The position numbers and the translations under genes are program-made. A stretch of 64,000 bases of DNA, from contig JALHNJ010000003.1 of NCBI GenBank assembly GCA_022843585.1, positions 186,001 to 250,000 of the forward strand. Reading direction: 5' to 3'. Positions 19,700 to 27,681 of this stretch are shown here, in pieces. Positions within the stretch are counted from its first letter, which is position 1, and every line of letters starts with the position of its first letter. The stretch is from Chitinophagaceae bacterium (GTDB taxonomy: Bacteria > Bacteroidota > Bacteroidia > Chitinophagales > Chitinophagaceae). The notes beneath the pieces are model-generated. The model saw only the letters and a list, made by a program, of their open reading frames with translations, was not told the DNA's origin and ran no database searches.

Positions 19700-20140
19700 T
19701 TACCAATCTTCCCATTTTCTATAATTGCTTTCATTTAGAAAATCCACAATATAGTCTGCCGTTTTTTCGGTATCCCATCTAATTAAAGAATTGGGTATGC
19801 GGAGAGTAAAATAACCTTTCAGAAAGGAGTGATAGGTACGTTTCAGGTCGGTCAAAGCTTGGTTTGCATTAAAATTATGATGCTGTCCATCAACCTCAAT
19901 ATTCACTTTTGCCTCTGGCACAGCTATATCAATTGTTTTAAAGCCATCAAATTTTTCTAACTGGGCTGGAACACCTCTTTTACGTAAAGCAAAATATAAT
20001 TCAATGGTTTCTTCAGTAGTTTCAACTTCTCTTAACCAATCCTGATGGTTTCTGCACAAAGGAACACCGAAATTTTCAAGAGAATAATTAAAGACATCCC
20101 ATTCAAGAGAATATTTACATTCAATACATTTTCGGCGCAT
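19700..20140 (-). CDS. Small PD-(D/E)XK-type nuclease with N-terminal zinc ribbon (DUF559/Vsr-like)
   Basis: 146 residues. An N-terminal four-ligand motif C5-x2-C8 ... C29-x2-H32 suggests a zinc ribbon. The C-terminal part has KTIDIAVPEAKVNIEVDGQHH (split at residues about 68-88), with E82, D84 and H87, then LTDLKRTYHSFLKGYFTLRI, the pattern of DUF559 and very-short-patch-repair-like endonucleases. It lies 26 bp downstream of the type IIG enzyme gene on the same strand, so it is likely an accessory nuclease of that system: a Vsr-like mismatch repair enzyme for the methylated site, or a second effector. HNH-type activity seems less likely. Confidence 0.7.
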   Translation of the reverse strand: MRRKCIECKYSLEWDVFNYSLENFGVPLCRNHQDWLREVETTEETIELYFALRKRGVPAQLEKFDGFKTIDIAVPEAKVNIEVDGQHHNFNANQALTDLKRTYHSFLKGYFTLRIPNSLIRWDTEKTADYIVDFLNESNYRKWEDW

Positions 20141-20166: not shown

Positions 20167-23100
20167 TTAGTTCGCCGCTCCTTCCACAATCCTAATTTCC
20201 TTCTCCGTCAACTCATACAACTCATAAACCATCTTGTCAATTTCATTATCAGTTTCGTTTATTTCTTTTTGTATTCCGTTGGCAATAGCTTTTTGCTCTT
20301 CAAAATATTTCATCCATTCGGCTTCTTCATGCAGACTTAGTTTTATTTTTTGCTTAGAAAGTTCTTTTAAAAAATCTTTAAAGAGTAGCGAAGGCCAATC
20401 TTCTAATTTTTTTGTCAGCTTAAGGTTATCGTATTTGCCAGTTAAAAACTTTTGTGTTTGCTCGCAAATTCGAACTAAATTCATTCCTTTATCAAGCATA
20501 ATGTCTGCTTTTTCAATAAATGGCAATTGTTGGTTATTGTCAATAATCTTTATTGGAATTTTCTTGCAATTTTCAATAAGTATTTTTTGAAAAAGCTTTT
20601 TCTCCAAATCAAGAAATTTAAAACTGTGATAAAAATTAATAAGACTCGAATTTAATAAAGTCAAAATATATTTTACAGATAAAGTATTTTTTGGAATTAT
20701 TCCGAAACCATGGTGAGTATAATAGAATGGCTGATTGGCATATGAAGCATATATTCTAGGCGGATTTCCCGAAATAATTTGTCGAACTATAATTCGTTCA
20801 TTTAAAAAGAATCTTTCTTCTCTAGGCCTGCCTAACCAAGCTCCATATTTTAAAAACTCTTTGATTTGAGATGAAGTATAATATCTAGTAATATTTTCTC
20901 CTGATATCAATGGTTTATATTCATCATTTAATTTAGTGTCAGAGTGAAATACTCTATTGTTTATATCTTCCTCACTGTGTCCTTTATATTTATCATAAGG
21001 TGTAATGCCCAAAGAAAATTCTGCACAAGTTAAAAGCTCAACTGAATTATTTTCAACTTTACCTAATAAGGAATAAATATCAAAAGAAGAATATAAATTA
21101 AAGTTTAAATCACTTGAGTTTCGCCAATCATTTTTATTCGCAACAGTTTTAATATTTAAGTCAATAAAATTAATCCTCACATCATTTGGATATTTTATTA
21201 CACTAACTTCAGTAGAATTAGAATCTTTTTGAATTCTAATGATTATAGTTTCAACCTTTGCATCCTCAAAAACTGTGTCTGGTAATTTGACAATCTCTAG
21301 TATCGAGTCTAAAATAAGATGTCTAAGCTTTTTGTATGAACTATTTAATAATATTGAATTGGGAATGATGTATGAGAGCATTCCCTTACTTTTCACAATG
21401 GCAAATCCTTTTTCTACAAATGATGAGTATAAGTTGATTCGATTTTCAGATGTATTATATGTTGAGTATATATATTCCCCAATTTCTTTCTTAAGATTTT
21501 TTACATCAACATAAGGAGGATTTCCTACCACAACATCAAAGCCGCCATTTTTAAATACTGCCTTAAACTCATTTTGCCAGCTAAAAGCTTTGTTTCCCGC
21601 AATTTTTGTGTCATCTATTAAACTATTGCCACACTTAATATTGCTACTAAGATCGTTCAGCTTTCTCCCTTTTTTCGCAGTACGGAGCCAAAGACTAAGC
21701 TTGGCAATTTCTATTGCTTCTTCATTTATATCTACACCAAATAGATTGTTTTCCAAAATGGTAGTTTCCACCTCTGTTAACACCATTGCATCACCAAAGA
21801 GAGTAGCTTTTAATTCATCAACATAATGGTGTTCTGCAATCAAAAACTCCAACGCCTGGTTTAAAAAGGCACCACTACCACAGGCAGGGTCGCAAATGGT
21901 TATTTGAAATAGCCAGTTACGGTAATCGTCCAATCTTTTTAATAGTGTTCCTCTTGCATCCTTTCTCTTACGATAAGCAAATTCCTCATCAGTAATTTTT
22001 AGTTCCTCTTTTTTTTGCCTGCAGAGTTCTCCTACAGTATTTTCTACTATATACTTTGTTATATAGCGGGGTGTGTAGAAAACCCCATCCTTTTTTCTTT
22101 TCGTCTTTGTCTTTTCAATTACAGCTCCTTCAAGTTCAGCTTGTACCTCTTCAATTTCTGTAAGGCTATGTTCAAAAATATGTCCCAGTATGTTTACATC
22201 AACTTCACTTTCAAAATCATAATTGCTTAAAGTAGTAGTGCCGTTGTAAAGAATATCATCGTCAATTTTTATATTATCTAGTATTTCATCTGCCGCAAAT
22301 AATCCACCATTATAGGCAAATATTTCATGATGCTTCCCATCATGCCCGGTATTTAAATAACCAAAGTATTTTTTAAATCGGTCAAATAAGGGAACATAAT
22401 TATCAAGCTCTTTTAGTTTTTCCCAATCTGTCAATATCACTCTTACACTATTGGGCGGCACAAGTAGCCTATCTTCTGCAAAAAGAACAAATAGAAAACG
22501 GTCAAGTAGCTTTTGTGTCTTTTTAAATATTTCTAGTTTATTGTATTGTGGGTTTAATGCCACTATATTATTAAACAACACTCTTTTAAACTGAGAGTAA
22601 TCGGCATATAGTTTATTGGTTATTCCTTTTTCCTCATCTAGAGAGTTTCTTTTTATTAAGTAGGGTATATTCTTAAATATATGTTGCTGTTCTAAACAAA
22701 TAACCAGCGTTACAAATTCTTCTTTTGTTATTTTAAAAAGGTCAAACTCTATAAACTCAATGGAGTCATTAATGTAAAACCGCAGTTTTTGAAAGTTGGA
22801 AGTAATTACATAAATACATTCAGGGTGCTTATGCTTATAACCAAAGGCTTGTTTTTCTACTTTGCCAAGGTCAGTAGTATTAGTATCTTTTAACTCAAGC
22901 ACACCTGCCACTTTTCCGTTTACTAATATTGCGCCGTCGCTTTTTGTAGTATCGGCATCAGTTTTCTTTTCAAGCCTGAAATTAAAGTTGGGATTGGGGT
23001 AAACCGTATAGCCAAGTATTTTTACAAAAAGGTCATCCACAAAGCCAGCCTGGTATTCTTCCTCTTTAGCATTGCGAATATTTTCCTGAACCTCTGGATT

Positions 23101-23199
23101 ATGAAAATGAGTTTTAAACTGTTCCCATTTTTTTTCAAGGTTCTCTTTATTAAGGTCGTTGGTATATTTCTTAAGTACCGATTTCTGGAAAAGGGACAT
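20167..23199 (-). CDS. Type IIG restriction endonuclease / adenine methyltransferase (Eco57I-like fusion)
   Basis: 1010 residues combining cleavage and N6-adenine methylation. N-terminal PD-(D/E)XK nuclease: D88 (SDGAILVN) and E102-L-K104 (VLELKDT). Methyltransferase core: motif I DPACGSGAFL from residue 437, then NNLFGVDINEEAIEIAKLSL, and catalytic motif IV NPPY at 560-563. The C-terminal 350 residues are the target recognition domain (TaqI-like specificity segment with YTHHGFGIIP) and a coiled-coil. No separate methylase or specificity gene is needed. It starts a minus-strand block with a small nuclease, a membrane protein and a protease. Recognition site cannot be predicted. Confidence 0.9.
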   Translation of the reverse strand: MSLFQKSVLKKYTNDLNKENLEKKWEQFKTHFHNPEVQENIRNAKEEEYQAGFVDDLFVKILGYTVYPNPNFNFRLEKKTDADTTKSDGAILVNGKVAGVLELKDTNTTDLGKVEKQAFGYKHKHPECIYVITSNFQKLRFYINDSIEFIEFDLFKITKEEFVTLVICLEQQHIFKNIPYLIKRNSLDEEKGITNKLYADYSQFKRVLFNNIVALNPQYNKLEIFKKTQKLLDRFLFVLFAEDRLLVPPNSVRVILTDWEKLKELDNYVPLFDRFKKYFGYLNTGHDGKHHEIFAYNGGLFAADEILDNIKIDDDILYNGTTTLSNYDFESEVDVNILGHIFEHSLTEIEEVQAELEGAVIEKTKTKRKKDGVFYTPRYITKYIVENTVGELCRQKKEELKITDEEFAYRKRKDARGTLLKRLDDYRNWLFQITICDPACGSGAFLNQALEFLIAEHHYVDELKATLFGDAMVLTEVETTILENNLFGVDINEEAIEIAKLSLWLRTAKKGRKLNDLSSNIKCGNSLIDDTKIAGNKAFSWQNEFKAVFKNGGFDVVVGNPPYVDVKNLKKEIGEYIYSTYNTSENRINLYSSFVEKGFAIVKSKGMLSYIIPNSILLNSSYKKLRHLILDSILEIVKLPDTVFEDAKVETIIIRIQKDSNSTEVSVIKYPNDVRINFIDLNIKTVANKNDWRNSSDLNFNLYSSFDIYSLLGKVENNSVELLTCAEFSLGITPYDKYKGHSEEDINNRVFHSDTKLNDEYKPLISGENITRYYTSSQIKEFLKYGAWLGRPREERFFLNERIIVRQIISGNPPRIYASYANQPFYYTHHGFGIIPKNTLSVKYILTLLNSSLINFYHSFKFLDLEKKLFQKILIENCKKIPIKIIDNNQQLPFIEKADIMLDKGMNLVRICEQTQKFLTGKYDNLKLTKKLEDWPSLLFKDFLKELSKQKIKLSLHEEAEWMKYFEEQKAIANGIQKEINETDNEIDKMVYELYELTEKEIRIVEGAAN

Positions 23200-23331: not shown

Positions 23332-23403
23332 TACCACTAATGAGGTATATCAAATCCTTTAAATTCTAAAGGTTTCCTCTTATAAGTACTACTAACGTGG
23401 GAT
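23332..23403. repeat. Pair of related 17-bp imperfect palindromes
   Basis: TACCACTAATGAGGTAT at 23332-23348 and TACTACTAACGTGGGAT at 23387-23403 share 13 of 17 positions and lie 55 bp apart in the gap upstream of the type IIG gene. Each has TAC...GGnAT half-sites. Such a spaced pair could be an operator for a dimeric regulator or part of the repeat array next to it; no controller gene is visible. Confidence 0.4.
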
Positions 23404-23439
23404 TTTTTGTAGTTACTTCCATTTTTACCTTCACTTTTC

Positions 23440-23949
23440 ATGAGGGCACAATCTGTCATATCAACAGTTTTATCACTTCCGGTTCACGAACAGGCAATTA
23501 CAATAGCATCTCGTTATTGCAAGGAAACAGAAACAAGCAAAACAGCAGAAGTTTGCCATCTCGGCTCAGCAGATTGCTTGCTCGGCTTGCCAGATTGTCC
23601 TCTCAGCTCAGCAGATTACCTTCTCGGCTCGTCAGAAAGCCTTCTCGGCTCAGCAGATTGCTTGCTCAGCTCAGCAGAAAGCCATCTCGGCTCAGCAGAT
23701 TGCTTGCTCGGCTCAGCAGATTGCTTGCTCGGCTCGTCAGAAAGCCATCTCGGCTCAGCAGATTGCCTTCTCGGCTCGTCAGAAAGCCATCTCAGCTCAG
23801 CAGATTGGGCAACTACCTCGGCAGAAAATTATACTACCACAAAAAAATCTGCCACTACAATTAAAAATAGAAGCAAGGTTGGCACAGGCTCAGCAACAGT
23901 GTCGCCTTTTCAAATATCTCGGCAACAGTTTTTTTTATTAACCGCTTAA
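23440..23949 (+). CDS. Possible repeat-containing protein (21-bp array translated as heptads)
   Basis: The frame starting at the ATG at 23440 gives 169 residues: an ordinary N-terminal part (MRAQSVISTVLSLPVHEQAI), twelve heptads of the form LGSADCL / LGSSESH, and a Thr/Lys-rich tail. All three plus frames stay open across the repeats, so length alone proves nothing. In this frame the differences between repeat units are mild (Gly/Ser, Ala/Ser, Asp/Glu, Cys/Ser), whereas the two other frames give harsher changes (Ile/Lys, Leu/Lys, Ser/Val). No signal peptide is seen. It could equally be non-coding. It ends 57 bp before the next gene. Confidence 0.3.
   Translation: MRAQSVISTVLSLPVHEQAITIASRYCKETETSKTAEVCHLGSADCLLGLPDCPLSSADYLLGSSESLLGSADCLLSSAESHLGSADCLLGSADCLLGSSESHLGSADCLLGSSESHLSSADWATTSAENYTTTKKSATTIKNRSKVGTGSATVSPFQISRQQFFLLTA
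23560..23811. repeat. Tandem array of twelve 21-bp repeats
   Basis: Twelve consecutive 21-base units, each beginning CTCGGCTC or CTCAGCTC, followed by AGC or GTC, then AGA, then a variable end (mostly TTGCTTG or AAGCCAT). The two end types alternate irregularly, and GTC is found only with the AAGCC end. Unit boundaries keep exact register from 23560 to 23811. No unique spacers exist, so it is not a CRISPR array. The array lies between the type IIG gene and the gene at 24007. Confidence 0.9.
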
Positions 23950-24006
23950 GCCGCTATCTCTTTTCCAAAAAGAAAAGGACGGCACAAAGCACAAACCTTA
24001 TCAATT

Positions 24007-24915
24007 ATGACAGATGAACAAAACGCCGTCTACAGCATGTTTACTGTTGTAGATGCAGTACTCGATGCTAATTCAGTAGCAGTAGCCACAGTTCCTGCAC
24101 TCGTTACCGCACAAACAAATCTTAAAGCAAAAATTGATGCCATCAGTAACACATCCGAGCAACAGCAAACAGTCACCTCGGGTATCACTCCCGACAAAAA
24201 TTTTACAAGAGATGCATTACGCAACACCACTGTTATTAATGCAGGTCTCTTGTATGCCTATGCAGTATCAGTAAATGATATTATTCTGCAATCACTTTCC
24301 AAAGTCACCATGTCAGATTTAAAATCATTAAAAGATGATGATCTGTCCGAAAGAGCACAAACCATCCACGACAATGCAAACACTCACATTGCAGCATTAC
24401 CACCTTTCGGTATCACTGCTGCCACACTCACCAGCTATCAAACATTAATAGATAGCTACACCGCAAAAGCACCGGCACCAAGAGCCAAACAAAGTCAGCA
24501 GGTAGCCTTAACAGAACAATTAAAAACGCTTATCAAAGAAACAAGAACACTTTGCAGAACCACATTGGATACATTAATGCTTAATTTTAAATTAAGCGAT
24601 GTAGAGTTTTACAATACGTACAAAGCAGCAAGAGAAATTATAGACCAGGGCAACATACCCACACAAGCTGCCGGCGTTATCACAAGCAGTAGTTCTGGCG
24701 ATGAGTTAAGTGATGTATTAGTAGAAGTGATCGGGCAAACATATACTGCCACTTCAGACGGCGATGGAGAATACAGTGTAAAAATTCCCATACCCGGCAC
24801 ATACAGTATCAAATTTTCAAAACCCGATTACATACCCCAAACAATACCCGGCATAGTTATCACACTCGGGCAAACAACAAACCTCGATGTAGAATTGGTA
24901 TTAGCACCTGCATAA
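24007..24915 (+). CDS. Helical protein with C-terminal carboxypeptidase-regulatory-like domain
   Basis: 302 residues. Residues about 1-215 are helical and Ala/Thr-rich (MTDEQNAVYSMFTVVDAVLD, SDLKSLKDDDLSERAQTIHD), with no signal peptide. Residues about 220-302 form a beta-sandwich like the carboxypeptidase regulatory-like domain: GVITSSSSGDELSDVLVEVI, TATSDGDGEYSVKIPIPGTY, SIKFSKPDYIPQTI. Similar two-part proteins occur in Bacteroidetes but I know no function. It follows the 21-bp repeat array and is ended by a strong hairpin terminator. Cytoplasmic location would be unusual for this beta domain. Confidence 0.75.
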   Translation: MTDEQNAVYSMFTVVDAVLDANSVAVATVPALVTAQTNLKAKIDAISNTSEQQQTVTSGITPDKNFTRDALRNTTVINAGLLYAYAVSVNDIILQSLSKVTMSDLKSLKDDDLSERAQTIHDNANTHIAALPPFGITAATLTSYQTLIDSYTAKAPAPRAKQSQQVALTEQLKTLIKETRTLCRTTLDTLMLNFKLSDVEFYNTYKAAREIIDQGNIPTQAAGVITSSSSGDELSDVLVEVIGQTYTATSDGDGEYSVKIPIPGTYSIKFSKPDYIPQTIPGIVITLGQTTNLDVELVLAPA

Positions 24916-27546: not shown

Positions 27547-27681
27547 GGCAATCTGGTTTAGAGATGAGTAATGCTTTGAATTCAATGGGGTTGAAAACAG
27601 TTCTTAGTTCCTAGTTCGGAGTTCAGAGTTCGGAGTTTGGAGTTCGTTGACTTCAAACTTAGAACCTTGAACTTAGAACTT

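Follow-up and report, generated by a model that had tools for sequence, protein, structure and literature searches.

A 21-bp tandem repeat array recurs beside an orphan gene family in Bacteroidota and may serve as a helically phased protein-binding element

Does the 21-bp tandem repeat array found in this Chitinophagaceae contig encode a repeat protein, or is it a non-coding DNA element, and is it connected with the genes that flank it? In the window (the whole 64-kb stretch of DNA that was analysed), the array occupies positions 23546-23807 of the plus strand, where Tandem Repeats Finder reports a period of 21, 12.5 copies, 73% matches and a score of 265; the program can also read it with a period of 42 or 63. 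The array of about 12 units described in the first-pass annotation is thus real, and the two main unit types that it distinguished are present. The proposed linkage of GTC to one type of unit end is strong, but not absolute: GTC stands before AGAAAGCC in three of three cases, and one of the four AGAAAGCC units is preceded by AGC. No other stretch of the window reaches a lag score of at least 25 at any period tested (11 to 60), and the array DNA has no second match anywhere in the 4.49-Mb genome to which it belongs. A short 7-bp/21-bp repeat of the AGTTCGG type, unlike the main array, lies at 27599-27646, and heptamer runs similar to it occur near several loci of G016 and G030.

As had been stated, all three plus-strand frames are open across the array, an ORF of 169 aa (23440-23949, plus strand) passes through it, and its neighbours are an Eco57I/MmeI-type restriction-modification gene upstream and the gene of a two-domain protein downstream. 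The annotation had left the choice between a repeat protein and a non-coding array of variable copy number open. The non-coding reading is favoured by the analysis described below, in which the units are taken as direct repeats oriented with the downstream gene and the ORF as probably not a gene; the array is, however, more than a repeat of variable copy number, as it recurs together with the downstream gene family. A restriction-modification gene like the one at the window locus is not a general neighbour, being found at 3 of 87 loci. The window's gene (20167-23199) is duplicated together with the array and the partner gene in the same genome, a related gene also lies near locus L086, and a small DUF559 gene (19700-20140) adjoins it in the window. 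The duplicate copy (locus L032) and the window share a near-identical block 5' of the array (23367-23460, plus strand, as judged by alignment), which exceeds the array itself in conservation between the two copies and is possibly a promoter or binding region.

The partner gene (24007-24915, plus strand, 302 aa) is separated from the array by a spacer (23808-24006, plus strand) and encodes an orphan all-alpha N-terminal domain (residues 1-211) followed by a CarboxypepD_reg/transthyretin-like C-terminal domain (residues about 219-301). The C-terminal domain matches PF13620 (CarboxypepD_reg) at residues 223-297, with an E value of 8.4e-14 and 52.1 bits against a gathering score of 32.3, and its model is transthyretin-like (Z 15.3 to 5aq0, 82 residues, 1.2 A); shorter members of the family stop before this domain. 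For the N-terminal domain, no Pfam family scored above the cut-off in the window protein or nine relatives. It is predicted to be an alpha-helical bundle with high pLDDT (about 89), but with a pTM of only 0.56 and, in another model, 0.47. A Foldseek search with this domain returned generic bundles only, none of them significant (best E 0.49), and the VIA comparison (Z 9.2, 103 aligned residues, 3.1 A) again gave only generic bundles; Avd and S23-family proteins (Z 7.0 and 7.5) were considered as relatives and not accepted. Neither Pfam nor the fold searches revealed a recognised DNA-binding fold or winged-helix match in the domain, and a positive charge is not a consistent feature of it, with pI values from 4.7 to 9.9 across 77 relatives. 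No toxin family, including the ToxN/CptN/TenpN-type endoribonucleases, was matched above cut-off by family proteins in Pfam, NCBIfam or PADLOC. PHROGs gave two weak matches, each in one of 21 family members, and PADLOC gave one match, in one of 21. The window protein had no match among 72,556 plasmid and 50,697 phage records, and no relative of the family was found in viral contigs with search patterns built from close sequences only.

The partner gene has one paralogue in its own genome, the L032 gene (80% identity), which is likewise preceded by an array of about 12 units of 21 bp, built from a different unit. Genus-level relatives of the protein occur in several copies in some genomes. As the paralogue and many of these relatives have unlike 21-bp arrays, a family set of 78 loci, L005 and the window among them, was assembled. 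A segment of period 21 or 42 lies within 900 bp of the gene at 61 of these loci (52 upstream, 9 downstream), 54 of which have at least five units; the count becomes 59 once two 7-bp repeats that also score at 21 (L035 and L042) are removed, and 17 loci have no array that passes. The downstream cases include a group in G016 and G030. When the 700-bp flanks are scored with a threshold of 25 (chosen after inspection of the data), the best lag is 21 or 42 for 49 of the 76 sequences upstream of the gene and for 7 of the 75 downstream of it, and other best periods at this score number three upstream and four downstream. By comparison, nothing with a period of 21 or 42 reached this score in 400 kb of control DNA (20 stretches from 13 family genomes, including the window's own). 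Moreover, none of 16 genus loci that match the C-terminal domain only has an array, one run of N aside. In a second set, which draws on further families of Bacteroidota and on named records, 21 of 33 loci have an array, all upstream (20 without the 7-bp-like L198), and arrays of equal pitch are present in named records of other Bacteroidota. The array is one half of a widespread two-part module of Bacteroidota, the other half being the adjacent orphan gene. Text searches, which covered few subscription papers, found no description of this module.

Several properties of the sample define how these counts are to be read. Sixty regions of the first set come from the upper part of a longer match list. 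The second set partly overlaps the first: it represents 13 clusters, and its other members join first-set clusters. Loci already included (L138, L139, L141, L143, L145-L147, L149, L153, L178, L187, L188, L194 and L200) and fragments (L154, L156 and L193) were dropped from it, and the 33 loci kept include the partial genes L190, L191, L192 and L201. Loci are not independent, in that the 73 arrays of at least five units fall into 44 clusters at 45% protein identity. An N-terminal domain match was found in 16 of 395 Bacteroidota genomes drawn. A tally of 272 of 394 is not a module frequency, because many of those matches hit the C-terminal domain alone. Named relatives include records from Chitinophagaceae, Bacteroidales, Lentimicrobiaceae and Cytophagales; among them is Lacibacter cauensis, which has a weak array. 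Across the family, arrays hold about 5 to 27 units; for those that lie upstream and have at least five units (66 arrays, both sets), the median length is 218 bp, or about 10 units, and the median gap to the gene is 138 bp. In the spacers of L044, L078, L079 and L082, a word of the GTATTGCAAAA type recurs, beside an inverted repeat in L044 and L078, and is a possible operator or promoter.

The pitch of the arrays is nearly invariant. In the 54 first-set arrays of at least five units, which also served for the folding, six-frame and 54-array harmonic counts, 547 of 553 unit spacings are exact multiples of 21, a count that is somewhat biased because the lag matching used for array detection favours constant pitch. 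The six off-register spacings (20, three times, and 41, 43 and 62) are all off by 1 bp and none by 3 bp. Conservation within the unit is periodic as well: the 10.5-bp harmonic has a power share of 0.266, against 0.10 in column shuffles (54 arrays), with z values of 12.9 for the 54 arrays, 8.1 for 31 clusters and 10.1 for the 44 clusters of both sets; in the second set, z is 7.2 for 19 arrays and 5.2 for the 13 clusters that it represents. Family units thus have two conserved boxes one helical turn apart, and twice per unit the majority base reaches about 0.9 in conserved columns against about 0.65 in variable ones, a contrast that phase alignment itself sharpens. The pattern is a property of the family; 10.5 bp is the top harmonic in only 18 of 44 clusters, and the window array fits poorly, with a 10.5-bp share of 0.15 and a 5.25-bp share of 0.55. 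Conserved columns hold more A than T when read on the gene strand (132 versus 86, p 0.002, 44 representative arrays). Phased A-tract curvature is unlikely, as consensus units have an A/T autocorrelation of -0.09 at lag 10.

In contrast to the pitch, the sequence of the units changes freely and is mostly private to each locus. The units of both arrays in the window's own genome are confined to their own array, with the exception of one site with three mismatches. Copies within one genome whose proteins share less than 45% identity have an array similarity of 0.326, compared with 0.327 between genomes (31 versus 2537 pairs), and a shared genome-wide binder was rejected on this ground. Since unit sequences are unrelated even within a genome, no single sequence-specific host factor reads all arrays, which implies a locus-specific partner. 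No conserved neighbour gene was found across 87 loci, the widest neighbour cluster spanning 10 of them and consisting of large proteins; the natural candidate binder is, we infer, the product of the adjacent gene. Array similarity climbs with protein identity, from 0.40 at 45-55% to 0.72 at 75-85% and 0.63 at 85-100%, a co-divergence that common descent would by itself be expected to produce as well. A bipartite unit, TTACA....(A)AGAAA, in which (A)AGAAA begins about ten bases after TTACA, is common in one orientation to the distant loci L140, L157, L205, L094 and L090, whose proteins are 22 to 41% identical, and the L032 unit includes TTACAT. Among pairs of clusters, 7 of 946 exceed a similarity of 0.6, against 0.25 expected, and two of the seven match in opposite orientation. 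Small proteins that resemble HTH regulators by eye lie near L110 (1220-1564), L117 (3014-3379) and L126 (1276-1608; gene-oriented coordinates).

The regularities described above could arise in other ways. One such reading takes up the heptad-repeat idea of the first-pass annotation: the array would be coding sequence for a protein of that kind and would share an operon with the gene that follows it. Seven codons make 21 bp and 3.5 residues make 10.5 bp, and so pitch and conservation fit a coiled coil equally well. The ORF at 23440-23949 is attractive in this respect: its frame reads heptads of the LGSADCL type, the matching frame of the paralogue L032 reads LTSADWP-type heptads, the stop codon of the L032 ORF overlaps the start of the gene, and at L110 a 100-aa ORF that starts with MNKLPYYFF passes through the array. 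Furthermore, the gene strand has more open frames than column shuffles predict, both in the first set (38 of 54 arrays versus 29.2; 19 of 24 upstream clusters versus 12.6) and in the pooled upstream clusters (27 of 37 versus 19.2), though the second set by itself lacks this excess (11 of 19 versus 9.3 on the gene strand; 15 versus 11.6 on the other). This count is the sole coding test that favours coding. In a codon substitution test between units, run on 58 arrays of at least four units, synonymous changes were not over-represented on the gene strand of the 50 upstream arrays (Fisher p 0.38), and on their opposite strand the corresponding p value is 0.04. The unit differences had been taken as conservative, and as a sign of a heptad protein; across the arrays, amino-acid changes in open frames are no more conservative than in shuffles and tend, if anything, to be more radical (z -0.43, BLOSUM). 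The three codon positions of open frames do not differ in variability, there is no 3.5-residue hydrophobic moment of the kind seen in an amphipathic pattern (z 0.16 +/- 0.19, 27 clusters), 11 of 54 arrays are closed in all six frames, and the off-register spacings never equal a codon. The 3-bp harmonic is at its null value (share 0.088 versus about 0.10); simulated coding arrays gave shares of 0.383 at an omega of 0.2, 0.147 at 0.6 and 0.096 at 1, so that unconstrained translation would escape this test. The 5' flank of the array, compared between the window and L032 over a 216-bp ungapped block, is near neutral expectation in three frames, with no clear synonymous excess. Taken together, a heptad protein is unlikely, at roughly one chance in seven by our judgement. 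A synonymous count can detect coding at such loci: five related ones have a short ORF ahead of the array in which, over all pairs, 73 changes are synonymous and 18 non-synonymous, where 24.8 synonymous changes would be expected. This ORF encodes a short hydrophobic peptide (about 28 aa in L106, ending in ASSIHCPP), possibly a third component of the module at these loci; it lies, in gene-oriented coordinates, at L106 1514-1570, L107 1628-1684, L108 1630-1686, L115 1285-1341, L105 1652-1708 and L133 1390-1446, of which L133 was left out of the count. At L033 (3585-4940, minus strand), a stop-free frame of 451 aa with heptads like SMLAVSG extends from the array across the whole partner gene.

The array might instead act as RNA, transcribed into a repetitive molecule that binds or inhibits the neighbouring protein in the style of type III toxin-antitoxin systems. 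The anatomy is that of ToxIN, CptIN and TenpIN in that a tandem array, of constant unit length and varying sequence and number, lies mostly upstream of a single gene, a likeness of anatomy only, with 9 of the 61 module arrays downstream. In the sections of PMC5086642 consulted, ToxI is described as conserving its unit length while the sequence and number of its units diverge, with units of 34-36 nt in ToxIN; because of this parallel, the type III anatomy stays a serious rival. It is also consistent with the excess of A over T on the gene strand, with the several unrelated copies per genome, and with spacers between array and gene whose hairpins are more stable than mononucleotide shuffles (mean z -0.93 +/- 0.23; 13 of 63 under -2). 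The arrays themselves, however, show no excess of folding on either strand (mean z 0.06 and 0.05; 54 arrays, column permutations, pseudoknot-free model), Rfam gave no match at 11 loci, and the module protein is unrelated by family search to the type III toxins. The unit of the module arrays is 21 nt rather than the 34-36 nt of ToxIN as given in that source, and a Rho-independent terminator between array and gene is not the rule, terminator-like hairpins by the criterion used here being present in 3 of 63 spacers (0.8 expected). Few two-part sites of the Bacteroidetes-type promoter consensus were seen. Single-stranded RNA does not predict a 10.5-bp pattern, but two half-sites per unit could give one. 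An RNA role is accordingly judged improbable, about as much so as the heptad protein. Another possibility is a helix-phased spacer or rheostat, in which slippage inserts 21-bp units between the gene and a site farther away and only whole turns are tolerated. Such a spacer would account for the strict pitch, the mostly private sequences and the usual position of the array a short distance upstream of the gene, but leaves unexplained why units have two conserved boxes, why distant loci have a unit in common and why some arrays lie downstream; it is given only a slim chance. A neutral minisatellite or an assembly artefact, unconnected with the gene, would suit units that look unrelated between most loci, and some family genomes do carry further short repeats near the partner gene, with 3 of the 82 arrays counted in both sets being 7-bp-like. 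This last reading is made very unlikely by the association and the control counts, as well as by the fixed period and the equal-pitch arrays of other Bacteroidota.

The preferred reading, which has in our estimate about an even chance of being correct, is that the array is a non-coding, cis-acting, protein-binding DNA element, iteron-like in design and paired with the orphan gene. Computed support for it comes from the association, the fixed pitch, the 10.5-bp pattern of the family, the restriction of units to their own arrays in the window's genome and the co-divergence of the array with the neighbouring protein, from which we infer that a protein binds the array DNA, which protein this is and what the binding is for. 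According to this model, each unit would be a direct-repeat binding site that covers 21 bp, or two turns of B-DNA, and offers two boxes for protein contact at a distance of 10.5 bp, or one turn, although two equal patches per 21 nt could alternatively be two RNA half-sites or alpha-helical heptads. Bound protomers would all face the same side of the DNA, and neighbours could bind cooperatively. The product of the adjacent gene would be the locus-specific binder that travels with its array, and occupancy would either control the adjacent gene or anchor a nucleoprotein complex. A simple operator role does not suit every locus, since nine arrays are located downstream.

Systems of this general design are known. 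In plasmid centromere arrays such as parC and tubC, direct repeats at helical spacing adjoin the gene for the protein that binds them. For the module, a comparison of the neighbourhoods of 87 loci by protein clusters found no neighbour gene that they have in common. Iterons are described, in the portion of PMC4980987 consulted, as sequence-specific direct tandem repeats of about 17-22 bp, to which cooperative binding is lost when two sites lie half a helical turn apart and whose DNA the Rep protein contacts through two winged-helix domains. The module arrays are likewise direct repeats, and their 21 bp fall within the range given there; the helical phase of the sites is also shared, at the level of the family and weakly in the window's own array. 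In contrast to iterons, the module lies on chromosomal contigs, has several unrelated copies in some genomes, with about 5 to 27 units, and is partnered by a predicted alpha-helical bundle without a winged-helix match. The context is not that of a replicon, as the module is located in a 336-kb contig and the window protein has no plasmid or phage match. The resemblance to iterons would therefore be one of design only, with no Rep and no replicon found.

A broader proposal is more tentative and, in our view, rather less probable than the binding element itself: the locus may represent a new class of chromosomal two-part module, in which a helical protein sits on a private, phased 21-bp address array by an undescribed mode of DNA recognition, and in which copies within a genome are mutually blind. 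As part of the same joint proposal, this class might be a bacterial self-recognition, centromere-like or addiction-like system.

As a genetic signature, it is unusual for a fixed pitch and a freely changing sequence to go together with a single uncharacterised gene family throughout a phylum. Should the protein recognise its own array, the many natural pairs would show how a helical bundle alters its DNA specificity; should the partner be RNA or protein instead, the module would add a new system of the toxin-antitoxin-like or repeat-protein kind. In both cases, an N-terminal domain without a Pfam family gains a testable partner.
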